From Agelas oroides (lineage: Eukaryota > Porifera > Demospongiae > Agelasida > Agelasidae): a stretch of DNA of 64,000 bases. Below are positions 26,765 through 61,854 of the stretch, in pieces. The stretch lies in assembly GCA_949130485.1 (NCBI GenBank), contig OX422184.1:2522336-2586335 (forward strand). Reading direction: 5' to 3'. Made by a program: the position numbers and the translations under genes. The first letter of the stretch is position 1; every line of letters begins with the position of its first letter. The notes below the pieces were generated by a model that did not search any database, was not told where the DNA came from, and saw only the letters and a program-made list of their open reading frames with translations.

Positions 26765-36970
<10,206 letters not shown>

Positions 36971-39033: not shown

Positions 39034-42000
39034 ATGAGTTCAAGGGGTAAGAAATGTAATCACACATCGCTGTTGATGAGATCATAGTTATATCATAGTT
39101 TTATACTTGTAGCATGTCACTCTACTATCTATGCTTGTAGCGTAGGTCGTGGATTAGCAGCGATATCTAGCCTCGTTCCCAGACTCTCCCCTCGCCCCGT
39201 TTTTATTTTTCGTTGGGGCGAGGGGAGAGCCTGGGAACAAAGCTAAGCGGTATCTTTGCTATGGCTACATGTGCTGTAGCAGGGCTTCCTTTTAACACCC
39301 AATTACACTCCAGTATGATAACAATGATGTATAAGTGAGTGTTAAGTGTTTAATCACGTTGACTACAACAGACAGATGAGTGGGGTGTCTAATACTATTG
39401 ATAATTGCCTTGAGGCCAATAGACTGTGTGCCTGTGTGGGTGTGGCCATATATTATACTCGAAAGTATACGATTTTCCACATACTCACTGCCATTTTGTA
39501 GGGCAGTAGAATAGCAGTAATGTACACATAGACCCCTTGTTGGCTCCTTACCAGTAATACTGACGGCTGGATCGCTTAGTGTCTCACGTATGTTATAAGG
39601 CTAATAGCGATGTATGTCATACTGCAGCGATTTTATATGCGGCTCATGGTAATGTTCAGCAGCCAGCTCACAACCTCGTCGCTGTATAAACTTGCTGTTC
39701 ACAGAGCCATTTTTTGCCCTACGTTACGTCATCAGAATACTGACGCCACAGCCTGTGACATCACTGCCACATGTAACCATGCCCATTTAGGCACACGGTC
39801 TATACATAATTGCCCTCAGGGCAATTTAGGCATGGGATTCAACTTTGCATCAAACTGTGTACAGATGACTTCAACAGCCAAGTTAATAATTACCGTATAG
39901 CGGGTTACCGTAAAATCGGGATAATAGGCACCCACACAAAATAAGCACTCCATGAATATAGGCACCCATTTTGATTACAGCAACCGCATCATGTTAATAA
40001 GGACCCGTACAAAAATAGGCACCCCACAAAAAAAGGCACCCATTACCGTGCAAATGGAAGTGAATTTGCTGAGTCGGCTTTTCAAACGTACCATCTAACT
40101 ATCGCCACTGTCTATCTCCGATTGTAAGCAAGCTATTGGGATAAAAATCGAACTTTAGGCAAGGCCTCTTGATAAAACATTAGCAAAAACCTTTCACAGA
40201 TTCGTTAGTTCCAAGCGCTTTATGTTGGTGGGCGGGGGGTGGCAGCGATCGATCGATTGCCGACTGAATCTGTGGTTCTAGAAAAGCTACAAACATAGGT
40301 CATGGAGTTAGCCGAAAAAAGAACCTCTAGGCCTAAAACATATCACAACTAATTTTCTCTCACACACCTGTATGTAGTGTCGAACCCAGACTCCCCTTCA
40401 ACCCTCCAAGAGGAAAGGGGGTTCTGGTGAATATAGTACAACATTTTTGTACCTCCGCAGAATTTTGGCGGCACAATCTGATTGGCTGATGTGGCAATTA
40501 TCTCACCTGTACTGGCTTCCTTACCACAAACCACTTAGCTTTACTCCAACCTTTACAGACCTACTTAGCACACCTCCAATTTGCTGAAGCCCAGCAAGCA
40601 CCTTCAAAGGCTTAGCGACCATAGCAACAGCTACCCCATGGTGTGAGGCTGTACTATATTTGCCAGACCTACTTTTACTCTTTGGAGGAGGGTCTGGGTA
40701 CGAGACTCTCCTGTATGCTACTATAATATTACATTCATTTATTAGCACCCTATGAATATAAGCACCCCACGATTATAAGCACCCATTCTGGCTGCTAATT
40801 TCGAAAATAGGCACCGGTCCTGATTTACGGTATTTTCGTGTGTGAAAATTTTTGTGAAAAGCTGGAAGAGGCTCCCAGAATTAAATTTCGTGGTTTTATA
40901 TTTTGTTGCACGATATGGTATTTTTGATTTTCAGATTATGTAGGCGAACTTTGAACTTGAGACACCTGTGCAAATTTTGGTTTCAACAAGGAAAGATGGA
41001 GCGCTTCAGTGTCAAGTCTTGCATTAGAGTGGGAGGCCAGTATTGGAGAACAGCTACTATGCAAACACGAAAATTTCATGCTGAAGTGCCTAACAGCAGC
41101 ACGAACTCCGTTGGTGCTTGGATACCTGGCTACTTGAGCCTTCCTTTCCGCAGTGAACTAATCACTACATGCGGGACAGCTTGAGAAAGGGGACCCTGTA
41201 GATCAAGGACACTGTCAACGGGCCGGCGTACGTAGCGAAAAGAGCCATAACAAAACGTTGCCGATCCAAATTTTAGCACGTGTAGACAGCGCTGCAGTGT
41301 GGGTGGTAAATTTTGTCGATGAAAAATTCCGTGACACCTGGGTTAACCACGAAAGTAACGAAAATTAGCACCCCACAGCCGCTATACAGTATAATATTAT
41401 GATGTACCAGTGCACAAGTATTACTTTGGTCTCACAGAAGCTTCTCTGATGACACTCAAAAATTTCTCGGAAAGGTCAGGTGACTAGAGTAGAATACAAC
41501 ACTTGACTTACTAGCTAGATCCCAGACTTGACAATATCTCAGAAATTACAGCAGAGACCGAAATGATATTTTCTCTGTGCATATCCACAAGAAAGGATAA
41601 TTCACACAAAGGTTTCATCATCGCATTTCATGAACCTATACCTTGTCTTTTGGGGTGTAATAATTATGTCTGCTGGTACAAGCTTCTTAACTGTTTTTGG
41701 TATCATGTATTTAAAAACATACTCACCAAAGTTTGCATAGTTTGGTAGTTTTCTTGTACCCAGGGTTTTCCCCTTTCAGTTATAAATGGTTCCCATCTAA
41801 AGCAGAGATAGACTATTGTCTGTAAGAGGCTACAGACTATGCAGCTATGTAGTTAGCCAGTTTTAGGGTATATCGATCATCGTGAGATGAGCCTGAGCAA
41901 AATGCAGTGCTGATCCCAAAGATTGCGTACAAAGTAGTAGGAAAGGCAGTCGTTACCAGTTGTACACGACAGCAAAGCTGGGACACAAGTATCTGCTGTC

Positions 42001-45000
42001 TGTGAACACGCAGCCTAGCTAGTTTAATTCTTTCTTGAGGCAGCTTATAGACTGTTAAATCGAATTGCATGTTATATATAAGGGATTGTAGGACTTCCTC
42101 CGCACACTGACTATTCAATTAGCACAAATTATGGCATGCCATGCACTAAACTAAAGGCTTACAGCAAAGAATCTCATGCTACCTTTGAGCAGGCCTCCTT
42201 ATCTGTCATGCTTGAGAAAAATTCTGCTGCCCTCTGTGTTCTGTGGGCAGTTTGGCTTGTCTATATACACAACTACCTATTCCTCACACAGCACATGTTC
42301 TTGCCTTCAGTACAAACTGTCATGTGTTATATTGTCATTTGTATGTGACTGTGAAAGAGGCAGTCCTTCAGTCAAACAGATCACATTTTCCCAGAGACCA
42401 CACTAATGTGAGGCTCACTCAGGCTCACCCCAACAACAAGGACTAGGTGGATATGGTGGCTTGTAGTTCTCAACTCCCAATGTACTCATCATTTCCTTCC
42501 GCCCCCCCCAAACTCTAAGTGTCTTCTGTCGCTGTTGCTTATTCAGATAACAATGCACCATCCATGCACAATGTTTTTGTGGCATGAGCATAGCCCATCA
42601 ATCCCAAGTTCAACAGATGGATAGTGCCTTGAAAATTCATTATTGCATGACTGCAGTTTTAGCCTACTTGGCCCCACCTACAAATTTACAACTGGAAATG
42701 AGTTCAGTGGGTTAACTCACTAACATGATCTGAGTAGACCTACACTGAATTATTTTCAACCCCTGATGCTGGCTGCTGCATGTAAACAGCCTTACAGTCT
42801 GACTGATACTGAATCTGAGACATAGCTATTCTGCTGGAATGGAGCCAGAAATATTATGTGTTCTACCTTCCCTTTGTTTCATACAGAACTAAGGGTGAGG
42901 AATATTCTGAATGTTCTTCAAGAGGCTGGGTTTGCTGATGCTCACTGGGAACTTCTCGGCCAGCAGTTGATGATAAAACAGCCTAATTTATTGACAATCA
43001 GAGCAAATCGTAATCATCAAGCCAACTTCTGCATGATAGACACGATATCCCAGTGGCTAAACAATGACACTGAAGCATCCTGGGAAAAGCTTGCTGATGC
43101 TGTAGCTAAGGTGCAAGGGTATGGAAAAGCCAATGCAGACATTGTTCGGCGAGAAGCAGGAATAGGTAAATTTTTCGGTCAAGTTTATAATGCTAAGCTT
43201 AATATTGGGAAATTCTTTCAGAGGTGTAATAATTTTTGCTCCATGAACTTTTGCACATTTACAGTTATAAGGCTGGCGTAACTGAAATACAAACATGGAT
43301 TGGTATTCATGACATGTATAGTTACTATAGTACGCACAATATGTAGTTGGGAATGCAACACCTGGAATTTTTAAGTGATGAAGGCTGAGACGTTTCCAGA
43401 CTAGAAATGCTGCCACTGTAGTAAGTTGCATGGGATATCCTCAAAAGTATGCAGTAGTGATTCTGAAAGATTTACCTTCTTGAAAGAAACAGCTTGTCCT
43501 CCAGGTAGACTGCAACAACTTCCAGAATTTTCCCCATTGGTTGGCTTGTGAGCAGTTATTGTTATCTTACAAATTAGTGCAATACAAGGCTTTGCATCTT
43601 TAACTTACTTCCAGTGGCCCTGCCAGGTTGTTTAATGCGGTTTGTCAGACTATTCTTTACAGGGTTTCATATGAAGTAGGGGGAGGGGGTGCACTGGATT
43701 TCCCCCTCTCATTCAGAGTTCCCTCCCTCTCCACCCCCCAAGAAATGTAAAAATTATGATGTCATAGTTACCTCAACAGCTACAATAGGGTATACAACAC
43801 AATAACAAAGTACAACATAATTATAGGCTTAATGTATTATAGCTGAATCTGACTATTCTTGTCCTTATAAATACATGTATGTTCAAAATTTTAAAATCCA
43901 TAAAACCCTAGCAGGTGCACTGATGCACGCATGTGCCCTTTGTATGCATCTCAATCCCCCCCCTCTCCCCAGGTTATGAAACCCATCTGTTTTAGTGTGA
44001 GTTTTACAGAACTACATTTGTCACAAGATTTCTGTATTGCACATGTCACATGTCGAAACTAAAAGTAATTTTGAGAAGTTGTTCAGTAATATTAAGCGGA
44101 AGTTGGAGTCAGGAATCGGGGAATAGTGCAACAAAGTAAAACAAGAGGTCTCCAGAGAAAACGTACACTGCACTGCTTTAAAGATGCTGGCACTGAAACT
44201 GTAGCACTCATTGCTGATAAAATTGCATTGAAGAAGACATGGATGCTGATGATCTTCATGCAGTTGCAATACTGATTTTAATAGAAGGCATGATCCGCTC
44301 TACCCCAAGATTTATGGGTAGATCTAAATTATAGTGCAACCAGTGTATGTGGGTGATCCAAATACTAGGAATGAAGCCTCTCAGCTGTCACAACCAGTTT
44401 AGTTTATGAGTAGCAGCCAGGGTCAAGACAATTTCTAGGAAAAAGAGCTAGCTCATAAAATTCTTCACTTGAGCTTTGTTGTTGTATATTTTACGTTTGT
44501 ATAGATGTGAGCAATGGCCAACCTCCAAAAAGAGACCAGAGCAAGGGGAAAAGAACTACAAAAGGTATAGCTTTAATGGAAGTGTATAGTAAGTGATCAT
44601 GACATTTTATAGTTACAGTGCTCATTCTAATAGAAGGCATGATCCAAGACCAAGAAATATTTTGTGGCTGGTTGCAACTTACAGTGCAACCCAATATGAA
44701 TTTTGGTTGACCCAATACTAGGAATGAAGTTTCCGTTGTCACAGCTAGTTTATTTTGTGACAACAAAGCGTGGTCAAACTAGCCCATAAATATCTTACTT
44801 GAGCTTTGTTGCTGGAACTGCTACATGTACTAGGTTACGGGATACCGTGATCAGTGGTCCAGACAGAACAAGTCACAGTGGCTACGTTCATTAGGCTACA
44901 GCTGCGAAATACAGCGGATGAGTTGAGAGGCATGACACAAACATGCGCAGCGAAAAGTGATGAGCTATCTCAAAGGAGCCGTCATGCACGTGTGGTCAAA

Positions 45001-48000
45001 GCTCATGAACATTTTTCAGCCAAATTCTGCTTCTGCAAACAACCAGGAGGGACAAAGTGCATGTCAGAGGCTTTTTTAGAAAAGTACCTCTCGCTTTTAG
45101 AAACAGTCTGTTACCGCTAAAACTTCACATACCACACAATTATTAACTTCTGTATACTTACAACAGCTGACTCTATCCGTAAAAGCTCCCTTCATGCACT
45201 GCATTGTCCATTTTATAGCTCTTTGGACATTAAACCATTTCATATATATAGCTGCTGAACTCTATATTTGGCTGGAAATATACACATCTAATTGCGGCTG
45301 TTTCCAGTGAAAATGTAACACGCATATTTAAATTTAGAATTTACGGTAAGTACGCACACACAAGTGGTATCCCGTAACCTTAAGAGGCTCACATCTTGAC
45401 TACAAAAAATCTGAGACTGAGAACTGAATACCAATAAGTTGCTTGGGTATTCTACTACAATGCATGGTCCTAATGCAAGAAGTTTAAGTTTGAGAATTTA
45501 TGGGTGGATCTAACTTAATGCATACCTACTCACCTACTCAAACTCTTTTACAATATCTGCTTTGTGTTTGTTAGTTGTGTGCATGTCAGAGAGTCGGTAG
45601 ACTATCTATGTAGGGATGGCACAGATGCGTAATATATGCAATACTTAAGCAAAAGCCGTATAACTTCACCACAAATGCGCTAAAAGCTTATTTAAGTGCC
45701 CAGGCTTCCTCTTTGAGTGCCTTTGTAATCAGCAAGACTCATATAAGTGGCCAAAAGCCACGCGGAAGACAGCTAAATGCAAAAGTGTGCGGTAGTGAAA
45801 GTACCATTTTCCTCATTCTTTCTCTTTCTTCGTTACAACCACTTTGTTCAAACAACGATAACTCAAAAACTGTGCAAGTACTCACCATCATTTTAGCACA
45901 AAACTGAAGATCATCACAGTGCGAAGCTCTACGACCACTCAGCGTCTTCATAGCTTCAAATTTACCATAGTCGATAAAGCTGTTCACAGCACTGCCTGCA
46001 TGGCTGCTGTCCATTGCTTAGGACACCATTTTCTAATTTTTTTACGCATGCGCACATGTAGTCTCATTCCCAAACCAAAGACCACGGTCATGGTCTGGGA
46101 GCAAGACTAGTGCACACGTGAAATCTTAGCCTCGTTCCCAGGCCTTCAATCACAGCTAACGCGGTGGAAGGCCTGGTAAAACTCCTACGTAGAATGACGT
46201 CAGGTGGACGTAAGGGTGGACGTAGGACTTTTGGAGGCGTGGTACTTTCAGTCTAGGAACTACGCTAAAGCAGGCGCTATCGCGGACAGGCGTTCAACAA
46301 CGACAGAACAGTCTGGTGTTACTTCTCGGGTTCAGGATGCCGCCTGACAGATGCATAAAGGACGTCCGTGAAGCCAGGGAATAAATGTCCTTTTGTGTAC
46401 ATGTATTCCCTGGCTTCAGACGTCCTTTATGCATCTGTCAGGCACATGTACTGCTCTGTCATTGTTGAACGCCTGTCCGCGATAGCGCCTGCTTTAGCGT
46501 AGTTCCTAGACTGAAAGTACCACGCCTCCAAAAGTCCTACGTCCACCCTTACGTCCACCTGACGTCATTCTACGTAGGAGTTTTACCAGGCCTTCCACCG
46601 CGTTAGCTGTGATTGAAGGCCTGGGAATGAGGCTAGTGAAATCTTACTAGCGGCTAGAGACAGGAATAAAATCCATTAGTGAACTTTGACCTTTTGTGCC
46701 GCAGTTCCAAACCAATGCGAAAGCATCGTTCCATGCAGACGCGGTGTATCACAAGGCGTTTGCCACTTTTACGTAAAAGGCAACGAAGGTTGATAATATT
46801 GAGGTGAGTCATGTGTGAGTATTCTAGTTATGTAGATGTAGCCATTGTAGGGTGCATAGATGACACTAGTTGTAGTGATTTCATGAAAGTAACTATCTCT
46901 TTATTGAAAACTACAATTTGCTCGACACTTGTAGTGCTTTTCGTTATCCGACATTTCAGACCTTTGTGCAGCTGTGTTGGAGCTACAGGAGGATATCACT
47001 CACACTGATACAAGACTCTATAATGTGCTCAGCAGGCAGAATTCACTTTTGCTTGTGTGTGATCTATGTAGGCTTCATTCATTAATAACCACAACATTAT
47101 GATCCTTGTCTTAAACTCAGTGTCGCTACCATGGCATAATGATAATGGAATATTAGAGGCTGTACAGGATAGGGTGGGAGGCAAATTGCTAGGAGCTAGT
47201 AGAACAGTGGCAGGGAAGGCAGTTTGTGGGGAGATAGGATTGAGAAAGAAGAGAGATGTATAGACACTGATTCCGGAAGGTTGGTTTTAAGAGAGATTGG
47301 TGAAACCAGGAATCGAAAGACCAGGTGGTGTAGGTTGAAGGAAGGAATACGGGGTGCTACTGAGAAAGATTAAGAGCCGGAAGAGTCGGGGTTGGCAGCG
47401 GTTTGGAAAAGGAAGATAGAAAACATAAAAAACAAAACTGAGAAAGCTGGCAAGAAGAGGTAGACAGGAAACTTAAGTAGTTTGAAGTGGTTAAAGAAGA
47501 GTAGGGGCCACAGAGGTACGTGGGCTCATGGGAAAAACATCTGCCTGTTAGGTTGAGGTTCTGATTGAGGTCAGGTCCTGCAGGCAGCAGGGCTGTTTGA
47601 AGATAAGGTGTGGAGGTGGACAGATGTGTGCTTTGTAGTGGAGGGAAATTCCACAAATTCTGCACCAGCCATTCTTCCAGTCAGTCGAGTCAACGATCGC
47701 ACATGCAGTCATCAAAGTAACCTTGAACCCAGTCACATTGCACAGACTAGGAACGAGAAAAGTAGCTCAATCGCGGTGCACGCACGTTTGGATGCACAAT
47801 TATACACTCAAGGTCAAAGTCCACTGATGGGTTTTATTCCTGTCTCTAGCTGCTAGTGAAACCTTGAGTTGATCAGCACAGCGTACGGCTGGCACGGTCT
47901 CTTCCCAAAGTAGTGGGCAAGGCTTATATGCCATGCACACCACCTATAGGTAAGGTGCTGTATTCAGCTGCTTACTTATAGCCATACTAAAAAATAGCCT

Positions 48001-51000
48001 ACTCACATCTTTAGTAAAGCTAGGTTGGTCAGTTGCCTGAGTACGGTTGTCAGTTGTCATGTCAGATAATCAGGAAATCAGCTTCACAAAGGGAGGTACA
48101 GAGAGTGGTTGGCCCTTGCTGGCAATGTTACACATAAGCTATGGCCATTCCAAATGAGACTATGGTTTCCTGTCCTCCGCCCACCCCCTCTGGAGTCTAC
48201 CACACCATTATGGCCATTATTATTCTAAATACCGTATAGCGCTAAACTTTCGAGGGTCTTTAATTTTGTGAATTTCGCGAAATTTCAACCGTTGGCGAAA
48301 TTATTTCAACGAAAGTTTTTGACATGTAAACTATGCTGCTGAATCCGCAAGGGACGCTCTCCAAAGAGATACCCTCGAAGTCGGCATTGCTTTGCTGACA
48401 GCTGTGAGCTCGAGCGCAGATGACGGTGTGGACAGTGCGTATTAGATAGAACTTGCTTGTATGCCACACCCATACTACATTACGTTGCAGCGTGCGCATG
48501 GTAAACTATTCAAAAACCGCCATTCGCGAAATTTAGACCCTCGAAAATTTAGTGCTATACAGTATTTCAAAAATGTCATCCAACGTGCAACATGCACTAT
48601 ATGTAGTACAGTAGCAAAGGTAGCATTAACATACTAGACTTGTGTAAAAGCAGACATAGCACCAACAACGCCCGATTCAGTGGAACATTAATAGTGTGAA
48701 TGTGTTCGACAGCTCCAGGATGCGGACATTCCGACGCAGTTAATCCGGACATTGTTTCTTGCACGAATTTATAAACTTATAATGATATTCATAGTAATGG
48801 TTAATAGTAATAGACCGCCCGCCCGCATGTAAAATGACAAAAGTCAGGACGGGAAACTATTGTCTCATTTGGAGTGGCCTATACGTGCTTGGAACCACTA
48901 CTAAACTGTCAATGCTGTTTCAAGTTCTGGGGTTGTGGTTACTCGTGCACTTGAAAGATATAATATTCTTCATAAACTTCAGTCTAACTGTAACTGAGAT
49001 TAACATCAACAAAGTATAGAAACAAGTAAATAAAAAACATTAGAAATGTAAAAAGATGTAGGGATGGCATGCCAAAAAGTATGCCAACAAGGTAGGGATG
49101 ATGCATGAAAGCAAAGGTCAACATATTGGCAAAGCCCCATCCCTACATCTTTTTCACACTACAAGACTACATTATATGAAAAGGCAAACCACCATACTGC
49201 TTATTTTACACTGAGTAAAATGGGGTGTTCAGATTAATAAAAGCTCCAAGCTATTTCATTAGCAGTTTCAATCTCACACTCGCCCTACTGCACCTTATAT
49301 GGCTGAAACACATCTTTGTACATAGGCGCCTGCAGAGCTGTGTGGGTACCCGGGCAAGACTTGGCTACGCATGTGCAATTGCGGAAAGCTTATTTTGTCA
49401 CTACACTCACTGTACGCTATACATGCGTCTGTGCGTGCGTAAGCACGCACAGACCACGTGTCTTCGCATCCGGTCCTCGTGATATGAGTACGCATGATTC
49501 GAAATAACCCGGGCAATGCAGGCGCCTGTCTTTGTATAAGACTTTGGCTTGCTTTTCAATAGATGTGATTGTTCATGCATGGCAAGAGGTAGAACACATA
49601 CATATACTAATAACAAGATATCAACCTGGTACTGTTTTCAGAACTGTCTCTTGATTACTTTAGCTGGAACACCAAGGAAGAGAGTGAAAGAGGATTCTTC
49701 TGGAGAGGAAGATGAAGAGCGTTCGGAACAAGAGGAGGAGGCTGAGATTGAGATGGTATACCAGTAGCACTACAGTTAGCACTAAGTAACCTATACTCAC
49801 AATAATATGCCCCTATGAGCAAATGCGCTCCCCCTGCTTAGCTTTTACTTGTTCTGAACGCCCTGTGGTAAGCGCCTTCGGATGAACTTTTAGTACGTTA
49901 GCTTTTTTCCATCAAGTGTTTTTGTAAACAAGTACACATGGAACCACTAGCCTCGTTCACAGACCACCACCCAGGTTTTCGTTGCTTGCAGTACAAGCTT
50001 ACATGGGTTGTCCCTAGCCTCATTCCCAGGCTCTCGTGCGTGGGCAGAAAAAAAGGAACCTGGTACACACTGTATGTGCATGCTCAGCTCCCCCAGGATT
50101 TCTGGGAATTTGGGAATTTGGAAATTTCCGTAAAATCTGCTCCGTTACACTAACCTCTGCGAGGCACGCCGACTTCTCTCGTATAAAAGATACCTGCCAC
50201 TGACCATCCTCTGTGTGGACGATGACGAGGGAGCGATGAAGGTACTGAGTTCTTCGCTTGCAGGAACTGTCCACGCGTTTGTCCATTCCAGCTAAACGCT
50301 TCGGCATGTGAATGATGCAATCTTTGAAGTTCACCGATCGCCTCGAACAAAGCAATGCAGACCATTGCCGTCAAAGCGATATTGCTTTTGACTTCAACAT
50401 CGCTCGTATGTGTCCCACAGGGAGTATAACTATGCAGTGCGGCCTTTCAGCAGGTAAGCAGAAATTGACCGTAATTTTAGTGTAGCGGAGTAGTATGCAG
50501 GTTACCAAGGGAACTTGGTGCATGTATGAACAGTGTGTACCAGGCTCTCTTTCCTCCTCCCCTGCACAAGAGCCTGGGAACGAGGCTAGGGTTGTCCCCT
50601 GTCACCACTAATGATATAAGTTACTGTACTCACGCCATAGTTAAGCGCATTTCACTTATAAGCGCTATCTGGTATTAAGCTCTGGTTAGTGTGCAGTCAC
50701 TGTGTAACTTGAAATAAAGCACATACAAAATGCACCTTGCTGTTACGTGCATTTCCACTGTTAGGTGCTCCTTTCCTTCCTGTGGAGTTGTAAGTGTATG
50801 TGCTTAAGGTGGCAGGGAACCCTGTGTTTTCAAGGTCAACAAACCTGGAATCCAAGCTGATAGAATTCTTTGTCTTTGTAAACTTTTAGCGCACAGTCAG
50901 TTTTGGGAGTCTTCATCCGTTCATGGTCCGTAAAATTGGGAATTTCCTGTTGGCATTGACATCCAATAATCAGTTTATAATTAAGTTAGTTAAGATGTGG

Positions 51001-54000
51001 CCTGGCAGAACCCCTCATGTGGTGGTTGGAACTTTGAAGATAAGCTTAGATCGACTTAAAAAAAAAAAAAAAAAAGAAGGAGTTTAGTAGAGTGCTGTAG
51101 TGTCAGTAGCTGTGAGTAGTGTGAAGTGCCTGCTTGTGAAAGCAAGCTTGTGTCTAGAAGCAGCAGAAAGGCCACAGTGGCCAAGACTGTACTCATTGGG
51201 CAGGCCCAGGTCTTGCGATTGTATGCCAAGCCTAGTAGGTGATCGTGGCCCGGTGCTTCGAGTGCTGGGCTGGGCTTTAACTAGAATGCGCAATATATCG
51301 TTGGTACTACGTTGCCATTGACAGGAAAGCTGAACGGTGTTTGTGTGTGGAACAGAGCCGTGAGTTGTTTAGCGACATAAGGGGGAGAGGTGGGGCTAGT
51401 AATGCTTGCTTGCACTCGTGAATGAGCCCCTCCCGTAGACAAGCTGTGAATTTTTTGAAATGTGCATTCATTTTGGTACAGTCAAAGTTGTCCATTCCAA
51501 GAGTAGTGACAAACATGAGTCTAGCCTGACTTTGGGAGTAGCTCTGAACAAAAGCTGGCACAGAATGATTTGCGATACATTGGTGGTTAGGACGCTACCT
51601 ACAATGAGCATGTAGATGCATCCATCGAGTGGCAATTTTGGCTCATGAATATATTAATAAGCTACTAAAACCCATTTTTAAAATTAGGCAACGCAAGATT
51701 GCCCTAAACCAAACCCTAACCCTGAAACTAGGAGCAACACTGGTCCTGACTGTAACCCAGGTTTATGTTTTCGTAACCTCCGCCGAGTGACTTCCGCTGC
51801 CACATTAACAGTGCGTGACTATGCTACTCTGATGCTCTCAATAACAGAAAGGGAGGCGCATATATATTGTGAATTAATGATACTTCTTGATAGCCACAAT
51901 ATAGCATGTGTGCATGTGTGGAGGTTTGCCATTGTAGGTTAAGGCTAGAGGAGGTAGAACGCAATCACGTGATAGTGATAATTAACTGACATTCCAAGGC
52001 CAAGGAGTGCGGATGCAACCTACAGGTGTACATGTGGGCCTTTTAGCTATGTATTGGCTACTTGCTCAGGGTCACCCTAGGGTGATGCAGCATCTCCCTA
52101 GTTATACTTATCCCACTAGTTTGGTCGTTTATATTACTATACGCACAAACTAGTTTGCAAGGTAGTTTACCATAGAGTATGTATTAAACATCATATTTTG
52201 GCGACATTAGAATGTAGCAGAAGAGGAGTAGGTGCTAGACATGTACAGTAGTATTTTCCCACCTACATTGTGTTTCTTTGGCCTAGACTCTATCCCTGTC
52301 AATCATATAGTCCCACGTTCTGTCCGTTCATAACTTTTCAGGAAAAAGAGAAACAGTCGCATGGGGCATTCCCTCACTTACACAGTCTATAAATAATGTT
52401 TCGAAAGCCGGGAAAATCTCATTTTCCAGCAGTGTGCAGTTCAACACAAGCAAGAATGAGCCATAAATTCTTAATTCCAGATCACCCTCCGAGCATTTAT
52501 ATCACTGTGAAGTAACTAAGTCTGTATAGGCTCTCATTTCAATACCTTGATGCTGAGATATGCATGTAAATTATATTTGTCTGTATCATCCATCTGTAGC
52601 CAAAGTGCCTCACATACACACGAGAAGATGAAGAAGCTATTGCAGAGACAACCTCAAGCTCTTTTCAGAGCGCATTTATTCCTGACACAAGAAAACTGTT
52701 GACTATACCTGAAATCAAGGTACATGTTACTGTAGTAAATTCAGGAATGTGCAAGCATGTGATTCGTAGTAGCATAGCCATCCCCAGGCACAGATCTGGG
52801 CAATGGAGCTCTGATTCAACCCACACTTTATCAGAGAGTCGGTAGACTCTCTAGGATTGGCGTGGATGCATAATATATGCAATACTTAAAGCAAAAGCCG
52901 TATAACTTTACCACAAATACGCTAAAAGCTTATTTAAGCACCCAGCCTTCCTCTTTGAGTGCTTTTATGATCAGCAAGACTCATATAGTTGCCCAAAAGC
53001 CTTGCGGAAGACAGCTAAATGCAAAAGTGTGCGGTAGTGAAAGTGCCATTTTTCGTATTCTTTCTTCTTTGTTCAACAACAATAACTTGAGAATGGTTTG
53101 AATACTCACCTTGATTTTAGCACGAAACTGCTGCTTATCTTAGTGCGCAGGTCCATGAACACTTAGCGTCTTCATAATTTAAACTTAACCCACACCAAGC
53201 TCTTCCAGCACACAGCAGCTGCTGCCCGTTGTGTAGGACGCTATTTTCCAATAATGTGCGCATGTGCACAGTAGTCTCATTCCGAGACCACAAATTACTG
53301 CATTTGGTCTGGGAATGAGATTAGCATGTGCGATCTCTGCGAGCACGACTACGAGTTGCTGTCTCTGCCTGTCACACAGGATGCTACGCAACGCTATTGA
53401 CAACACGTAGGTAAGACGCTGCTAACTACTATAAGATTGATATCATGTGAAGGCCAATGGAGGGCTACTGTCACAGTGCAGCATCAGCGACCCGGAGCGA
53501 ACACGACTGAAGTTGAAGCATGCATGGCAGCTTGTGTGTGTGTTTTTTATAAGCTATCTCAACTACAGACAGGCAAACTTCACAGTAGACTGCTTACGGA
53601 TGGTATGCACGGTGGCTGAAGTTGCTTCAGGTACTGAGAGATAACTTACATGTATGTACAAACTACGCTCCGGAGATCCAGCTCATGATTTGCTTAGTCC
53701 ATGCATGTGTAGCCATAGTAACTGCCCTGACTGACAGCGTACAGTCACGAACCCTGTTGCTATCCATGGTTTGTGTGCCATGACAATAGCCAGCACAATG
53801 TGCTGCTTGCTCAGGCTCGCCCCATGATGCTGAAACATCTTCCTAGAAATCTATATACTAGTATTAATATTTAATATTGTTATGGTTACCATACATGTAT
53901 GTACAACACTGGGTTATATGTTTGTACATACCTCTCTATAATATAGGTGTGGTTCATGAGCCCAATACCAAACTGGAGGTATGGGGCTCACCCAATCACA

Positions 54001-57000
54001 GACCAGAAAATTCTAGAATGGGCGAACGAGTGGAACACGTTTCACACACCAAAGTATCCAGATGGGAATCCCGTTCCAAAGTTTGTTCCTGCAAAGTCAC
54101 AAGCTGACAGTGATGTACGTGTTGAGTATACAGGTATGTAAACATGATTTCATGAGCGAAAATATTTATTCGATGACACAATTGTGTAGTCCTAGTACTG
54201 CAGTTGTCCAATAATTATGGTGATATGACTCTATTAATTCCATGACTTGTGTCCTTAGTTAATGGTGATTCTCGATCTCAAGTCGGCACTGACGCAAAGA
54301 AGATACCAGTCAAGGAGGCCACAATGTATCTTGATCTTGGCAGAGGGCATGATGAGTACAAACAATATCTTGTCCTACACGAGTTTGGGCATGTATTAGG
54401 TCTTGGGCATGAGCACCAGAGTCCAAAGGCTCTTGATTTTATTGATAAGACGAAAGCAATAGGTGAGCTCACAGATGACTACAAGAAAGCCCTGAAGAAT
54501 ACGTATCATGGGAGAAAGCTGGATAAAATGGCAAAAAAAGAGGCAGAGAATAAGTTTGAGAAAGATTTTGAACAGAAGTCTGGGGGAGAAGCAACGGAGT
54601 ATGATCCCCACAGCATCATGCACTACTGGTAAGATATGTGTATTTGCAAGTTACAAAGTTGCTAATTTAAATCTAGTCATCTACAAATATTTATTTTGGC
54701 ACTTCAATCTGCGTGATCCAGGATTCCAAAGAAGTGGCTGAAAAAGGAATACGAGTATATTGCAAGCCGGCCTGAAAGTCAGCTGTCAGAGCAGGAGAAA
54801 GGAATAAAGAAACGGTTAACTACCTTGGCAACTAAACTCTCAGACCTTGACAAAGAGATGATTGCCGATAAATATCAAGGTGATTTTAGTTTTGTCAATC
54901 TTACACATGCTACACATACTAATATTAATGGTTCCTGTAGCTCCTTGTTAAGGTTTGTCTAGAGCCAAGTTAGAGATCATGTTCTCTGTATTGGTCTGAT
55001 TACATTTTACACAGAAATGACACCTTTACATGCAGTAACTGTCAGCGTGATGAAATTAGAATGGCTATGGCACACTTAGTCTGATGGAAAAAATATACCT
55101 AGCTAACACCAAACTATATAGTAAGCTGGTTGCAACCACTGTATTGAGCCGGAGGCTGGAGTGGTGGATAGTGAGAGTATCTGCTCAGGCAATGTGCTTG
55201 TACAGTCAATCCGCAACCCCATCTGCCGGGGATCTCCATTTAAAATAAGGGAATGTTTCCGACTGCAAGAGAGAGAAAGACAGCTGGAGTCGGCTGAGGC
55301 CTCCAGCATTGCTTCTGCTCCTCTGCCGTGGGTCCAGTGGCTCAGTGGTAAGAGCATCTGACTAGTAATCGCAAGTTCCGGATTTGATTCCCACCTGAAT
55401 TCCTGTGGACACTGGCTTCTGCATTATGTTTTATGTTTCTGTAGAAGTGAAGAATGCCCAACCTCAAGAAAAAGCCCAGATCACAGATGAAACACCAGGT
55501 AATGTTGTAGAGCTAGTTTATATTATAGTGCTGAACCCAAAATGGTACATAGCTATGTATGATTGCCTATGTACATATTATGATAGGCATAGACACTTGC
55601 TAATACCCTCCCTTTGAGTAAATGCCTTCCCCCCTTTTACCCCCAAGTTCTTACATAGGTGATTTTCTTTCTTTTAAATACCCAGTGGTATGCTTTTTCT
55701 AGAATACCTCACATGCCATGTTATGGCTTTAGAAAAGCTGGTTTGAAGCTTTTAGCTTAGCTTAGTGAACACAGCCATCGAGTGTTTTTGTTTCCTTCTG
55801 AATGTGTACATACACGGCACCACTGTAGCTTTATCCACAAACCAGCACCCATGTTTGAGTTTCTTGCAATACTATCATGAGTTGATTTTCTTTTCTATCT
55901 AGGCTCATATATACACATTATAGTGCAGATGATGACTTGAATTTGCAGGCATTGTTAGCATATGTACTATTAGATGACATGGTCAAATCTATTCTGTTGG
56001 TATGTAGAAGTTGCAGCTCCTCGTCCTCCTGGAAGAACTGTAATTGATTATGATGAACCATGTAAGTTGAAGACTTTCAGATTTAAGATTGCTACCATAA
56101 TGATTAACCTTGTTCCCAGGCTCTCATGCGAGAAGAGAAAAGAGCCTGGTACACACTGTTGGTGCATGTGTGAAGTAATTTACCTGCATGCTATTCTGTT
56201 ACACTGCAAGTACGGCCAATTTTAGTTGACCAGCTGGAAGGCCACAATGCAAGGTTATGCTCCCTTTTGAAGTCGGAAGTGACATCCCTTTGACGATAAC
56301 AGTCTGCATTGTCTTGTTTGAGTCGATCGGTGGATTTCAAAGGAAAGATTGAATCATTTATGTGCCATAGCGCTTATCTGAAATGCACATAGGCGTGAAT
56401 ATTCCCTGCAAGTGAAGAGCTGAATGTTTACATTGCCTCTTCATCATTGCTGCAACAGAGCATGGTTGGAGAAATCAATATACAGAGGCTATGGTAACTG
56501 TAATGGAGTCGGAAGTTTCGAAGTCATTGGAGAACTGAGCATGTGCAAACAGTGTGTACCATGTAGATTCTCCTTTTCCCACCCAAACACAAGAGCCCAG
56601 GAATGAGGCTAGTACATGGTATAAGGATTCACAACTTATTTCAAGGATGTAATCTTAACACACTGGAGTGTACATAGTTTACCTTTTTAATGTACACGAG
56701 AGAGATGGTAAGGTGATGCATATGTCATGTTACAGTTTAATTACCCTGATTTGCAGCAACGAGTTTCTGTCAGACATGCATCTGGATCTCTGCTGGAGTT
56801 GTACTTTTATTAGCAATTGTCTCGGCGATTGTTTGGGGTCCAGGACTGCTCACTCCTGCTCAGCCACCAGCAGGTATGCATGATTCTCCATGGTTGTTAG
56901 AACTTGTTGCATTTGTCTCAACTGTCTATATTATAGCAGATTGATTTACAATTTCTAACAATGGTGAAACCAAAGCAACACTACAGTAAGTAGTCTTGCG

Positions 57001-58563
57001 GTTTTTATCAATCGTTACATGGTGGCTGGCTGACAAGAAGAACAGTATCTGTTAATACTATCATCATTCTGTAGTGACACACCTATGTAGCTTAATACGG
57101 ATACAGGTAACCAGGTATATAACTTAGCTTGAATCAGATGGTATCTGTGTGCTGAAACGGACACTGTCCATAGTAGCCACACAAACACTTACATTACTCC
57201 ACATTTACATATACTGTGTGTACTATCCTACTCCATGCAATGTCCCATTGTGTAACTTATTCATGCACACTGGTCACCAAGCATAATACAAACCAGCAAA
57301 ACTTTTTTAAAAATTTGCCTTCAAACATTCTACATAGACACAATCACTGTCACCATTTTCATTACTGATGTGTCGGAATTCAAGATTAGTGTTGCCAACA
57401 ATGTGCCATGAAGCTATAAAAACCAGCATGAGGCATATCAGGTGATGGGATAACTGAGTTCTAGAATGTTCTAGAGGTGAATAATTGTGGTTTACAAGAT
57501 TACATAATAATGAATAAGAGTTGTACAGATTACATAATAACCAAGGAAGGAGTTCTTACTGAGAGTGCATGTTTTATAGTCACTCTCCTTCACCTGGTAT
57601 GTTGCATCACCTGTATAAAGTCGCATCACTATGTTTTAATACAAACTATTATGTCTAGTACTATTATGTCTGTCATGAGTGGATTGTGATTAGCAAACAA
57701 TATGAAATTGCAAGATATAATGGAACAATTTTAGAGAATAAGTATAAGTTAACTAATAAGTCATGAGCACCATGGTTCCAATAATTGTCTTGAATTTAGT
57801 GATTTGTTATATAAGAAAAAGGACTCCACTGCTAAATGACCCCATTTCTGCACCGGTTAGATATGTGCAGGTTGTACAATAGACCCTCACTAACCTGAAT
57901 AGCCTTGTACAAGTAGCTTCAAAAAATTTTTCAGGTTTTATATAGTGAAATGTTATTTTTTGAATTGGAATGGTTTCAATTCAAGTGTAATTTAACCACA
58001 GATAACGTGTACACGTGCAACTTTGGCTACATGTTATCAGTTGGTGCAATCCGTTTTGAAGATAGCTTTTGCACCGGGTACATGGCAGCTATCTTAGCTG
58101 GCTGTAGAAAAGCCTTGGTCGGCCATTTCTCTACTTTTTAGCACAAGCGGCCATAAAAACAACTCCTCTTTCCCTCTAGGGGCTCAATTTTTGGCACTGT
58201 AGGCAGGTTTTAGTCAGAAGGAACGTTACTGGTCGGAGAGCCCTGATAACTGAATGCTCACTGATGAATGGGCATGGTCAAGGTCATATACCCCAAGAGA
58301 ATTGTTAAAAAAGAGCTTTTCAAGGGCAAAGTAGAGGGATGATTATATATTTAGTCAAAATTGTATGGAGACTGTATATTCTATCATTTGTTACAGATAA
58401 TAACTGTCATCGGATAACAAGAAAGCAAGATCTCCCTACAGAGCTAGCAGAGATTGGCAACTGGGAGGCCCTCTGTTCACAATTGGAGGTGCCAGAAGCA
58501 ACACTGGATGGTCTAGTGCATGCTCACCTGGAGAACACTGCTAAGAAGCAGAGGTGTTTATAG
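39034..58563 (+). CDS. Death domain - metzincin protease - transmembrane - Death-like protein
   Basis: Twelve exons keep phase and GT-AG borders: 39034-39046, 42887-43165, 44505-44564, 49664-49755, 52600-52719, 53947-54133, 54259-54628, 54722-54879, 55445-55498, 56008-56061, 56757-56873 and 58397-58563. They total 1671 nt (556 residues). Residues about 6-97 form a Death domain (NILNVLQEAGF, ISQWLNND, SWEKLADAV). Residues 98-148 are a Lys/Arg-then-Glu-rich linker. Residues about 189-425 match a ZnMc metallopeptidase, with H291-E292-F-G-H295-V-L-G298-L-G-H301 binding zinc and the Met-turn at M371 in YDPHSIMHYW. Residues 471-489 are one hydrophobic helix (WISAGVVLLLAIVSAIVW). Residues 502-556 begin a Death-like fold (NWEALCSQLEV) but stop early. 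No signal peptide is seen. A membrane-anchored, Death-domain-controlled protease is inferred. The exon chain is strong, while the very short first exon is less certain. Introns hold many inserted elements. Confidence 0.72.
39169..39246. mobile_element. Short foldback with 9-bp target duplication
   Basis: Ends GCCTCGTTCCCAGACTCTCC and GGGAGAGCCTGGGAACAAAGCTA pair as a hairpin. The flanks GCGATATCT (39160-39168) and GCGGTATCT (39247-39255) are a 9-bp duplication with one mismatch. Confidence 0.75.
39402..39826. mobile_element. Inverted-repeat element, about 425 bp
   Basis: The left arm 39402-39448 (AATTGCCTTGAGGCCAATAG then the GTGTGCC block) is mirrored by 39781-39826 (ending CCCTCAGGGCAATT). 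It lies in intron 1 of the protease gene. Confidence 0.6.
39908..40830. mobile_element. Inner TA-flanked element (CCGTAAATC ends)
   Basis: Left CCGTAAAATCGGGATAATAG and right CCTGATTTACGG are inverted, with TA on both sides (39906-39907, 40831-40832). It is inserted in the left arm of the 39893-41389 element. It contains repeated AATAGGCACCC phrases. Confidence 0.7.
40376..40709. mobile_element. Innermost foldback with about 8-9 bp duplication
   Basis: AGTGTCGAACCCAGACTCCC is mirrored by GGGTCTGGGTACGAGACTCT. The flanks CCTGTATG (40367-40374 and 40710-40717) are direct repeats. This is the third nesting level. Confidence 0.65.
44275..44815. repeat. Partial tandem duplication flanking exon 3 of the protease gene
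   Basis: The segments about 44281-44480 and 44634-44815 share AATAGAAGGCATGATCC, ACTAGGAATGAAG, CAGCYAGTTTA and TTGAGCTTTGTTG in order. The 60-nt exon at 44505-44564 sits between them. Confidence 0.6.
44832..45380. mobile_element. 549-bp element with 15-bp perfect inverted ends
   Basis: AGGTTACGGGATACC (44832-44846) and GGTATCCCGTAACCT (45366-45380) are perfect inverted ends. An internal 88-codon frame (44854-45120) has Cys-rich text (CFCKQPGGTKC) but no recognised domain. Confidence 0.7.
45586..46110. repeat. Dispersed repeat pair, copy 1
   Basis: From TCAGAGAGTCGGTAGACT to CTGGGAGCAAGACTAG this matches 52831-53324, with shared ACGCTAAAAGCTTATTTAAG-type and GCAAAAGTGTGCGGTAGTG blocks. The right end is itself a small foldback (GTCTCATTCCC to GGTCTGGGAGCAAGAC). 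Confidence 0.75.
46127..46635. mobile_element. Large foldback (about 250-bp arms) with 11-bp target duplication
   Basis: Nearly the whole element is one hairpin. The left arm from TAGCCTCGTTCCCAGGCC through GACGTCCGTGAAGCCAGGGA is mirrored to GGCCTGGGAATGAGGCTA with few mismatches. The flanks GTGAAATCTTA (46118-46128 and 46636-46646) are exact direct repeats. Long inverted arms plus a 9-11 bp duplication are typical of Mutator-like foldbacks. Confidence 0.9.
46647..48231. other. Intron stretch without recognised exon
   Basis: Intron 3 of the protease gene. No phase-compatible exon with domain content was found. A 102-codon minus frame at 47357-47665 is leucine/serine-rich and looks like chance. 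Confidence 0.4.
48232..48562. mobile_element. 331-bp TA-flanked MITE (CCGTATAGCGC ends)
   Basis: CCGTATAGCGCTAAACTTTC and the inverted AAATTTAGTGCTATACAG share GACCCTCGAAA/TTTCGAGGGTC just inside, with TA on both sides. Same end motif as the element at 39893. Confidence 0.8.
49050..49154. mobile_element. 105-bp MITE with GTAGGGATGG ends
   Basis: AAAAAGATGTAGGGATGG (49050-49067) and CCATCCCTACATCTTTTT (49137-49154) are perfect 18-bp inverted ends. A second GTAGGGATG lies inside. Confidence 0.85.
49323..49528. mobile_element. Small inverted-repeat element with 10-bp duplication
   Basis: AGGCGCCTGCA and TGCAGGCGCCT are inverted ends. The flanks TCTTTGTACA and TCTTTGTATA form a 10-bp duplication with one mismatch. 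Confidence 0.65.
50015..50588. mobile_element. Foldback (TAGCCTCATTCCCAGGCTC ends) with exact 10-bp duplication
   Basis: Inverted ends plus subterminal GTACACACTGT/ACAGTGTGTAC blocks. The flanks GGGTTGTCCC (50005-50014 and 50589-50598) are identical. It interrupts a copy of the TACCGTA-family element. A sister copy is at 56104-56613. Confidence 0.85.
50804..51808. mobile_element. TTAA-flanked element, copy A (1.0 kb)
   Basis: It begins TTAAGGTGGCAGGGAACC and ends GCTGCCACATTAA. It is the reverse complement of most of 60236-61854. Minus-strand frames inside (SQARLMFVTTLGMDNFDCTK and RILVKAQPSTRSTGPRSPTR) are conserved in copy B, hinting at a decayed coding region. TTAA targets are used by piggyBac- and Kolobok-type transposons. 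Confidence 0.75.
52831..53324. repeat. Dispersed repeat pair, copy 2
   Basis: Counterpart of 45586-46110 in the same orientation, also within an intron of the protease gene. Confidence 0.75.
55330..55400 (+). repeat. tRNA-derived SINE head (Thr-AGT-like)
   Basis: GGGTCCAGTGGCTCAGTGG carries an A-box (TGGCTCAGTGG). The anticodon-like loop CTAGTAA would give AGT, and GGATTTGATTCCC resembles a B-box. The acceptor stem does not close at tRNA length, so a SINE or tRNA pseudogene is more likely than a working tRNA. Confidence 0.45.
56104..56613. mobile_element. Foldback, sister of 50015-50588
   Basis: CTTGTTCCCAGGCTCTCATG and CAAGAGCCCAGGAATGAGGCTAG form the inverted ends, with GAGCCTGGTACACACTGTT just inside mirrored near the right end. 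A clean target duplication was not seen. Confidence 0.7.
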
Positions 58564-58694
58564 CTGCATATGTTGACCAGGGGAATGCTTGCTGGGAGGA
58601 AGTCATTGAAGTTGTTGCTGGCTATCCTTTTTATAAGAAAAATCTAGCTAAGCAGATTGCTGAAAAGTATGGTGTTGCTTGGCAAGGGTTGTAG
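58564..58694 (+). pseudogene. Out-of-frame remainder of the C-terminal Death-like domain
   Basis: Shifting by one base after 58550, the sequence continues as AAYVDQGNACWEEVIEVV then KKNLAKQIAEKYGV to TAG at 58692-58694. This is the expected second half of the Death-like fold begun in the last exon of the protease gene. A single-base indel or sequencing error is the simplest cause. Confidence 0.65.
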
Positions 58695-59687: not shown

Positions 59688-60235
59688 GTAGCTAAGTTAC
59701 AGTCTGGTACACATTAGTGCTAGTGCATTTTCACTGACAAATGCTCTGAATCAGAACTAAGACCAAAATTTGAATTCTGGCTGGATCTCATGTCCATTTT
59801 TTTATGTTATTGTTTCTCCCATGCTCATGTGAGTCTTCGTGTAGGATACTTTTGTGGAATCTGGGCACAAGACTAGGTTCGCAAGCAGCGACAAGCTTCA
59901 GGTGGCGGATGGATCCATATTACGTATACTCACATTGACTTCAAATTTGGGAATTGCCACTTCTGCTTGCACATACTAGGGTTTTTATGGACTACCCAGT
60001 GGACAGTTCAGTAAAACCATCATTAATTGATAAAATAATATGTTGACTAATGACGTCTAATGTTCTTAGGTATGCAAGTTGGAATAGCATCTTCTTTGAT
60101 AGGGAGTAGAGCAGGTATCTGTGGTTAGTAGAGAGAGAGAACATACAGTCAGTACTTTTTGAATCAGTTTTGAGGAATTTCGGCTCCATCTACACCCATC
60201 AACACATCCCTTACTCACACATTTACATTCTTGTG
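59688..60235. other. Stretch without recognised gene
   Basis: No phase-compatible exon or repeat family was recognised. A 65-codon minus frame at 59992-60189 has no signal peptide or domain. Confidence 0.4.
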
Positions 60236-61854
60236 TTAAGGTGGCGGCGAAGTCTTTCGGCGGAGGTTAACAAAAACCTAAACTTTGGTTACAGTCAGGA
60301 TCAGGGTTACTCCTAGTTTCAGGGTTAGGGTTTGCTTTAGCGCAATCTTGCTTTGCCTAATTTTAAAAAGGGTTTTAGTAGCTTATTAATATATTCATGA
60401 ACCCAAAATTGCCACTCGATGGACGCATCTACATGCTCACTGTAGGTAGCGTCCTAACCACCAATGTATCTCAAATCAGTCTGTGCCAGCTTTTGCTCAG
60501 AGCTACTCAGGCTAGACTCATGTTTGTCGCTACTCTTGGAATGGACAACTTTGACTGCACCAAAATGAATGCACATTTCAAACAATTCACAGCTTGTCTA
60601 CGGGAGGGGCTCATTCACGAGAGGAAGCAAGCATTACTAGCCCCACCTCTCCCCCTTATGTCGCTAAACAACTCACGGTTCTGTTCCCCACACAGCTCCT
60701 CTGCAGCTTTCTAGACAACGGCAACGTAGTACCAACGATATATTGCGCATTCTAGTTAAAGCCCAGTCCAGTACTCGAAGCACCGGGCCACGATCACCTA
60801 CTAGGCTTGGCATACGATCGCAAGACCTGGGCCTGCCCAATGAGTACAGTCTTGGCCACTGTGGCCTTTCTGCTGCTTCTGGACACAAGCTTGCTTTCAC
60901 AAGCAGGCACTTCACACTACTCACAGCTACTGACACTACAGCACTCTACTAAACTCCTCCTTTTTTCGAGCGAAGTAACCGCACCCCAAGATGCTCACGG
61001 AAGGTTGGTGCTGCAGGTTTACCTTGGCTCGAACACTTTAGAGTTCAGTGCTATACGTAGGTGAAATCTTTGTTAGTAGGCTTTAGGGAAGATTCTATTG
61101 AGCTACAAGACCTGGATTTTGTGCTGCAAATCTACTTGAAGTAGGAAGCCTTAGAGTTCAGAGTTTGTGGCTTCTTAAAAAGCTTTACCCTCAAGGGAGG
61201 AGTCAGTCAATCGTGAATAGCTGAGCACGCCTTCACCTGCTTTATACTCGCGCGTTACGAGCATAATATTAGCCCTAAGCGCGGTAGCGCGCTCAATACA
61301 CGCAATGATTTTATACATAGGTATATTGAACGTGTGACGTCACGTAAGCGGAACAATCGCTTCGGGAGTCGCTGTGAGGGGTGACAGTGGTGTAGCTGGT
61401 GAAGGGAGAGCTTTTGGTATACCAAAGTTTCATTCCTGGGGTAAGTACACCATGCCATTAACGAATATCAACTCAGATTGGATGTCCAACGCTTCCTCTG
61501 GCCTGTGTATTATATTGTTATATTATATTATATTATATTACGCGGGTCCTTTAAGTTGCATCTTGGGGTGTAATTTTTTTTTTTTTTTTTTGAGTCGATC
61601 TAAGCTTATCTTCAAAGTTCCGACCACCACATGAGGGGTTCCGCCAGGCCACATCTTAACTAACTTAATTATAAACTGATTATTGGATGTCAATGCTGAC
61701 AGGAAATGGGGAAAATTCCCAATTTTACGAACAGTGAACGGATGAAGACTCCCAAAACGGACTGTTCGCTAAACGTTTAAACAGACAAAGAATTCTATCT
61801 GCTTGGATTCCAGGTTTGTTGACCTTGAAAACACAGGGTTCCCTGCCACCTTAA
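60236..61854. mobile_element. TTAA-flanked element, copy B (1.6 kb, inverted, with nested insertion)
   Basis: It begins TTAAGGTGGCGGCGAAGTC and ends CCCTGCCACCTTAA. It is the reverse complement of 50804-51808 apart from an insertion at about 60965-61570 beside a T tract. Frames shared with copy A read SQARLMF-like and RILVKAQSSTRSTGPRSPTR on the plus strand. Confidence 0.75.
60965..61570. mobile_element. Nested element (CACCCCAAGATG ends)
   Basis: CACCCCAAGATG (60982-60993) and CATCTTGGGGTG (61559-61570) are inverted ends of the extra DNA in copy B. Its right part resembles 18985-19105. A TATTA microsatellite lies at about 61508-61540. Confidence 0.65.

Follow-up and report, generated by a model that had tools for sequence, protein, structure and literature searches.

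Introduction

Death-fold signalling is textbook-linked to cysteine proteases, initiator caspases (of the caspase-8/-9 type) being recruited via a Death-fold domain by Death or CARD adaptors such as FADD. Here, we analyze a locus of the sponge Agelas oroides whose predicted exon chain joins a metzincin, a zinc protease, to a Death-like domain at either end, with a putative transmembrane (TM) helix between the protease and the C-terminal Death-like domain. The locus lies in a 64,000-nucleotide stretch of contig OX422184.1 of assembly GCA_949130485.1 (C2:2522336-2586335; the window, in whose own coordinates positions without a contig label are given). The host genome comprises 259 Mb in 141 contigs, and a search of it for paralogues served as the key test. 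The reading that we hold to be the probable one is that the locus encodes an intracellular metzincin assembled by Death-fold adaptors and is a member of a small gene family.

Among described systems, Kaur and colleagues report 357 Amphimedon proteins with NCOA6-clade TRADD-N domains, and the part of their paper that deals with these proteins describes most of the architectures as starting with Death-like domains and varying in their C-terminal parts, the enzymes named there behind the Death-like units being a kinase, a caspase, a PNPase and an HD domain (PMC8195603). The part on bacterial conflict systems describes bacterial Death-like domains (bDLDs) fused to trypsin-like peptidases and, in iSTAND2 effectors, zincin-like domains that are called inactive (PMC8195603). 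Shuffled Death-fold effectors are a known theme; a metzincin as effector class did not turn up in our literature search, in which no Death-metzincin fusion was found at the level of titles and abstracts, a metzincin in the Amphimedon supplementary tables being possible.

Results

The metzincin and its predicted exon chain

The gene model was built outward from the exon with the zinc site, using GT/AG splice sites and phase on the + strand, and comprises eleven exons from 39034 to a stop at 58694, with phases that agree at all joins (Table 1). Both motifs named in the initial annotation of this DNA, HEFGHVLGLGH and YDPHSIMHYW, are present, the former at 54378-54410 (+) as the sole HExxHxxGxxH of the window in all six frames, and the 19-residue hydrophobic helix described there is confirmed as a stretch of that length with a mean Kyte-Doolittle hydropathy of 2.7. 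The metzincin zinc site HExxHxxGxxH and the Met-turn with its following Tyr (SIMHY) are found in 5/5 close genome copies, and across 28 aligned sequences the zinc site, its Glu and the Met-turn S, I and M are invariant and the Y nearly so, all of them kept in the window protease. The spliced 238-residue domain passes the cut-off for Pfam Astacin (M12A; 30.3 versus 22.5 bits) and matches myroilysin structures (Protein Data Bank [PDB]: 5zjk; E = 2.8e-11). Among 7998 candidates scored, 63 homologous proteins were found at E ≤ 0.01, three of them with a named organism (the bacteria Cytobacillus and Polystyrenella and the fungus Psilocybe); in a tree with 59 of the 63, four rows without the motif used for cutting having been left out, the window protease forms a long branch of unresolved position. 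No close relative of the protease exon, nor, in a separate scan, of the Death exon, came out of contig scans, and the predicted fold of the protease exon alone (predicted local distance difference test [pLDDT] 52) was too poor for use.

Secreted animal astacins have a signal peptide, a propeptide and disulfide-forming cysteines. The window protease has no Cys and no N-glycosylation sequon in its 238 residues and is not classed with them, and no signal peptide was found for the gene: a search of 43.3-53.9 kb for a phase-0 signal-peptide first exon with a good donor gave no convincing exon. Its two candidates, at 46811 and 53895, are weak, and the second overlaps the protease exon in another frame.

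The Death exon, the linkers and the hydrophobic exon are each of class 1-1, and the acidic exon (phase 1 to 0) together with the three protease exons amounts to one further 1-1 cassette; being of this class, the hydrophobic exon could be left out of a transcript with the frame preserved. Homology links the linker at 44505 with the stalk exon at 55445-55498 (score 54, compared with 27 for the best of 400 shuffles); the stalk exon at 56008 resembles these two to a degree not clearly above that of shuffled sequences. By a coding score trained partly on the acidic exon itself, the acidic exon is the top-scoring 1-to-0 exon in 43.2-53.9 kb. A candidate extra exon between it and the protease (52600-52719, phase 0-0) was dropped for its low score.

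A small gene family in the same genome

Five close protease copies, the window's included, lie within 0.6 Mb of each other (C2:2.42-3.02 Mb). Paralogue C (C2:3003800-3018292) repeats the exon order and strand of the window, starting with a 5'-truncated Death exon. The linker, the acidic exon, three protease exons and two stalk exons follow, then a hydrophobic exon that has diverged and a C-terminal Death exon with an intact frame; its stalk, hydrophobic and Death exons are read in phase 1, like those of the window. Paralogue B (C2:2819761-2827824) gives a clean seven-exon model of 474 amino acids, with GT/AG at 6/6 joins and no inner stop, in the order N-terminal domain, linker, acidic exon, metzincin, SAM and stop; a hydrophobic helix is absent from it (highest 19-residue hydropathy 0.6). 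Paralogue A2 (C2:2444085-2449704) resembles B, and its SAM exon, which is identical in B, scores 65.8 bits with Pfam SAM_2. The N-terminal exon of A2 and B differs from the window's Death exon; aligned with five CARDs it scored 17.6 in hhalign (best of 60 shuffles 15.2) over 32 columns only, and it has no Pfam CARD match. In paralogue A1 (C2:2413341-2439456), the protease exons lie ∼8 kb behind a Pfam Death exon (24.0 bits, cut-off 22.6) and are followed by linker exons, a SAM exon (39.1 bits) and a second SAM-like exon. The N-terminal partner is thus Death-like in three copies and another domain in two, and the family consists of an astacin/myroilysin-like metzincin behind an N-terminal adaptor domain and before a SAM or TM-Death module.

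At C18:5284124-5290761, a Death-like exon, two stalk exons, a hydrophobic exon and an intact C-terminal Death exon stand together, and no convincing protease match was found in the 30 kb fetched around this locus. Such an arrangement is what one would expect if a cassette of acidic and protease exons had entered a gene of this kind, and the window gene may have arisen by insertion of the cassette into a Death-linker-TM-Death gene like that on C18.

A different history would be a chance tandem array, in which neighboring unrelated genes (a Death adaptor, a protease and a TM-Death receptor) were duplicated as a block. The introns of the locus are large and repeat-rich, as such an array would allow, and block duplication has happened, since the SAM-SAM gene that neighbors the window gene (see below) is paired with the protease gene in paralogue C as well. 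Nevertheless, the acidic-protease unit is coupled in 5/5 copies (in A1 as a remnant), whereas the partners on its N- and C-terminal sides vary among Death-like, another domain, SAM and TM-Death, and phases agree in the window, in paralogue B and in those exons of C that were read, which makes this explanation very improbable. Fusion of Death-fold domains to a metzincin, as predicted from the exon chain, finds support in paralogues whose exon order is either retained or re-shuffled.

The N-terminal exon of A2 and B, CARD-like by eye, is matched at 15 places in the genome, and at two of these (C2:2444085 and C2:2819761) it stands at the head of a metzincin gene. Further metzincin-like places outside the cluster are C6:7799975 (7.80 Mb, with HEFGH) and, with the third exon only, C2:6852723 (6.85 Mb) and C2:5713173 (5.71 Mb).

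Assignment of the Death-like domains

Both Death assignments come from comparing profiles with exons of this genome that are themselves Pfam-positive for Death. The N-terminal Death-like exon, which has a close paralogue elsewhere in the window (Table 1), belongs to a family with many similar genome copies, 12 of which were aligned; the resulting profile matches four Pfam-positive Death exons (probability 90.9%, E = 1.2e-6) and scores 28.0 against nine vertebrate Death domains (best of 40 shuffles 17.7). When it is compared with only the C-terminal exon's 13 nearer relatives, the probability is no more than 10% (score 21.2 versus 19.1). For the C-terminal Death core, these 13 relatives match the same four exons with E = 7.4e-20, and a 17-member profile that includes the four matches FADD with E = 9.6e-4; with the four taken out, the remaining 13 show weak similarity to vertebrate Death domains (score 20.5, best of 30 shuffles 17.6). 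Among 99 candidate homologues for the N-terminal Death region, and 455 for an invertebrate-style Death domain used as a second query, none reached E ≤ 1. Pfam scans of the exons submitted found no TRADD-N, no TRADD-N profile having been run on its own.

The many copies of the Death exon and the presence of the catalytic motif in all five protease copies argue that the locus is not a chance open frame. The ratio of nonsynonymous to synonymous substitution rates (dN/dS) of the catalytic exon is 0.27-0.73 in all ten pairs of the five copies. For the opening part of the C-terminal Death exon it is 0.14-0.31 in 3/3 pairs (0.31 in both pairs that include the window copy), and for the two in-window N-terminal Death exons 0.54. 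Judged by these point values, the proteins look constrained yet fast-evolving.

Exon joins, reading frame and topology

Several points weigh against the window locus as a single intracellular gene of this kind. The model rests on genomic sequence, and its exon joins are predicted ones. Pfam Death matches none of the 12 aligned members of the N-terminal family, Foldseek gave no match to the N-terminal Death model at E ≤ 0.001 (its 14 hits were weak, and none bore the name of a Death domain), and those nearer relatives of the C-terminal exon that were scanned singly failed Pfam Death as well. The C-terminal Death segment runs in one frame to ∼58556 and in another from ∼58560. In the paralogues, C has a 5'-truncated N-terminal Death exon, A2 lacks the first protease exon and A1 retains only a short remnant of the acidic exon, which makes its joins less sure. 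The acidic exon donor is weak in the window, at the 85th percentile of the window's GT sites (the other nine donors are at or above the 98th), and likewise in C, with an in-frame stop right behind it in both. Finally, the charges before and after the hydrophobic segment (-3/+1 in the window and -2/+2 on C18) favor a cytosolic C-terminal Death domain with the protease outside, and a single TM helix combined with a cytosolic N terminus would place the C-terminal Death domain on the wrong side of the membrane.

The initial annotation, which had drawn twelve exons of uninterrupted phase through a Death domain, the protease, the helix and a second Death-like segment, therefore needs amendment in part. 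The domain order stands as a splice-compatible chain; where the annotation had asked for an orthologue of this order, it recurs in paralogues within this genome, the one searched. The GT/AG joins do agree in phase, but eleven exons were found, with a weak acidic donor and a last exon that is broken. The second Death-like segment is there, ending at the stop at 58694 and homologous to Death by profile, albeit with its frame changed within the exon; and, where profile searches against Death and ZnMc/M12 families had been proposed, the protease is recovered by Pfam Astacin, whereas the N-terminal Death domain is not Pfam-positive and emerges from profile-profile comparison.

With respect to the acidic-to-protease join, the acidic exon of A2 and B ends in AGG/GTAAGT (the slash marking the exon end) in phase 0, the homologous position in the window and in C reads ATG/GTATAC, and the first protease exon, present in the window and three further copies, begins in phase 0 throughout. 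The weak donor of the window thus sits at a homologous position that is a strong splice site elsewhere, and homology supports splicing from the acidic exon to the protease. Were the intron retained, the product would be a short protein consisting of the Death domain and an acidic tail.

As to the broken frame, no plausible intron is seen between ∼58556 and ∼58560, and two paralogues in the same genome pass this point unbroken. The window locus could accordingly be a decaying copy, a pseudogene among otherwise functional family members, a possibility compatible with the proposed interpretation of the family and to which the weak acidic donor and the losses in C and A2 would also be congenial. 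Against this, the opening part of the C-terminal Death exon evolves slowly in both comparisons that involve the window copy, the catalytic motif is preserved, and the frame change could be an assembly error; we consider decay somewhat unlikely.

The topology admits yet another gene structure, a type I membrane protease with an unseen signal-peptide exon, the protease outside, stalk and TM helix, and the C-terminal Death domain signalling inside, the N-terminal Death, linker and acidic exons forming a separate small adaptor gene that ends at 49767. This would account for the charge distribution in the window and on C18 and for the weak donor and the stop common to the window and C, and the stalk, TM and C-terminal Death exons do lie near the protease with good splice sites. 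However, no convincing signal-peptide exon turned up, the protease is devoid of Cys and sequons, the flank charges of paralogue C (+2/+1) disagree, and the acidic exon of both A2 and B carries a perfect donor whose phase suits the protease, with SAM and no hydrophobic helix following in B; a type I protease is therefore unlikely. Paralogue B, having no hydrophobic helix, is free of the topology problem of an intracellular metzincin, and skipping of the hydrophobic exon would likewise remove it in the window gene.

Features of the locus and its surroundings

Table 1. Exons of the Death-metzincin gene model and related exons in the window
Feature	Position	Strand	Evidence
Putative first coding exon (MSSR + 1 base; ATGAGTTCAAGGG, then GTAAGA donor)	39034-39046	+	ATG with G at -3; phase 1 donor
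N-terminal Death-like exon, class 1-1	42887-43165	+	In-window paralogue and family profile
Short linker exon, class 1-1, alternative end 44564	44505-44588	+	Counterpart C2:3006103 in paralogue C
Acidic linker exon, phase 1 to 0; if unspliced, stop at 49767-49769	49664-49755	+	Donor position homologous to A2 and B
Metzincin exon 1, phase 0 to 1	53947-54133	+	62-66% identical copies in A1, B and C
Metzincin exon 2, phase 1 to 2, with HEFGHVLGLGHEH and YDPHSIMHY	54259-54628	+	Pfam Astacin, 29.4 bits
Metzincin exon 3, phase 2 to 1	54722-54879	+	62-66% identical in 4/4 other close copies
Stalk exon, class 1-1	55445-55498	+	Counterparts in paralogue C and on C18
Stalk exon, class 1-1	56008-56061	+	89% identical copy on C18
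Hydrophobic exon, putative TM helix, class 1-1	56757-56873	+	77% identical on C18; 48%, still hydrophobic, in paralogue C
C-terminal Death-like exon to stop; one frame change	58397-58694	+	Intact copies C2:3017999-3018292 and C18:5290468-5290761
Paralogous Death-like exon, probably of the upstream gene	7448-7726	+	75% identical to 42887-43165
Two SAM exons with stop, end of the gene immediately upstream	36106-36970	+	Pfam SAM_1/SAM_2; exon boundaries

The upstream neighbor (7448-36970, same strand) comprises, probably, the Death-like exon, an exon at 34318-34467 and the two SAM exons; just upstream of the latter, 35900-35948 is weakly similar to the linker exons (E = 0.054). The equivalent neighbor of paralogue C is at C2:2991495-3001936, and its exon at 2998257-2998529, which has no Pfam match, is by eye presumably ZU5-like. 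Inverted repeat copies of ∼92% identity occur at 50804-51810, in a large intron, and at 60234-61854, downstream of the gene. Elsewhere in the window, a long array of 9-bp tandem repeats runs from 10353 to ∼12300, with an inverted homologous array at 24551-25328, a minus-strand open frame at 13.75-14.29 kb looks transposon-derived by eye, and an acidic repeat exon at 22060-22527 has a high coding score.

Discussion

If the window gene and its relatives encode intracellular metzincins, the protease would act as an effector inside the cell. Assembly of the Death domain on a sensor or adaptor could gather several protease copies and so raise their local concentration, as in initiator caspases; such activation by clustering is predicted from the behavior of Death domains elsewhere. 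The hydrophobic exon, skippable in frame, may provide a membrane-bound form. The purpose would most likely be defence or cell death, within a fast-evolving, lineage-specific repertoire. More tentatively, and as a possibility that we would not yet call probable, the family may represent a caspase-independent, zinc-protease arm of Death-fold signalling, in which metzincins with a Death- or CARD-like adaptor on one side and a SAM or TM-Death module on the other are turned on when the adaptors assemble, and diversified by cassette exchange within a tandem cluster. If true, a zinc protease would occupy the caspase position, and assembly-driven proteolysis would be an open socket for unrelated proteases. 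The locus offers a candidate effector for immunity or cell death that is directly testable, and the cluster displays module swapping, with one protease cassette and varied N-terminal (Death-like or other) and C-terminal (SAM or TM-Death) partners.

The locus shares with initiator caspases a Death-fold recruitment domain in the protease's own chain, and differs from them in being a zinc metzincin rather than a cysteine protease, in its C-terminal SAM or TM-Death module and in that proximity activation is a prediction only. With the Amphimedon proteins that combine Death-like and TRADD-N domains, as described in the part of the paper cited above, it has in common an N-terminal Death-like unit, fast-evolving, shuffled C termini and lineage-specific expansion; section 10 of that paper has no metzincin among its enzymes (PMC8195603), and TRADD-N is not seen in the window family. 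The bDLD systems are bacterial, and the zincin-like domain in the part describing them is called inactive and is without a described Death fusion, whereas the metzincin active site of the window is intact. P0039, a metzincin followed by ankyrin repeats, belongs to the same metzincin subfamily and is alike in having no obvious signal peptide by eye and a fused repeat of intracellular type, and unlike the window gene it shows no Death-fold domain. Myroilysin and related bacterial M12 metallopeptidases (PDB: 5zjk) have the same HEFGHxLGxxHEHQ core and SIMHY Met-turn, there in a bacterial enzyme and here in a multi-exon gene with adaptor domains.

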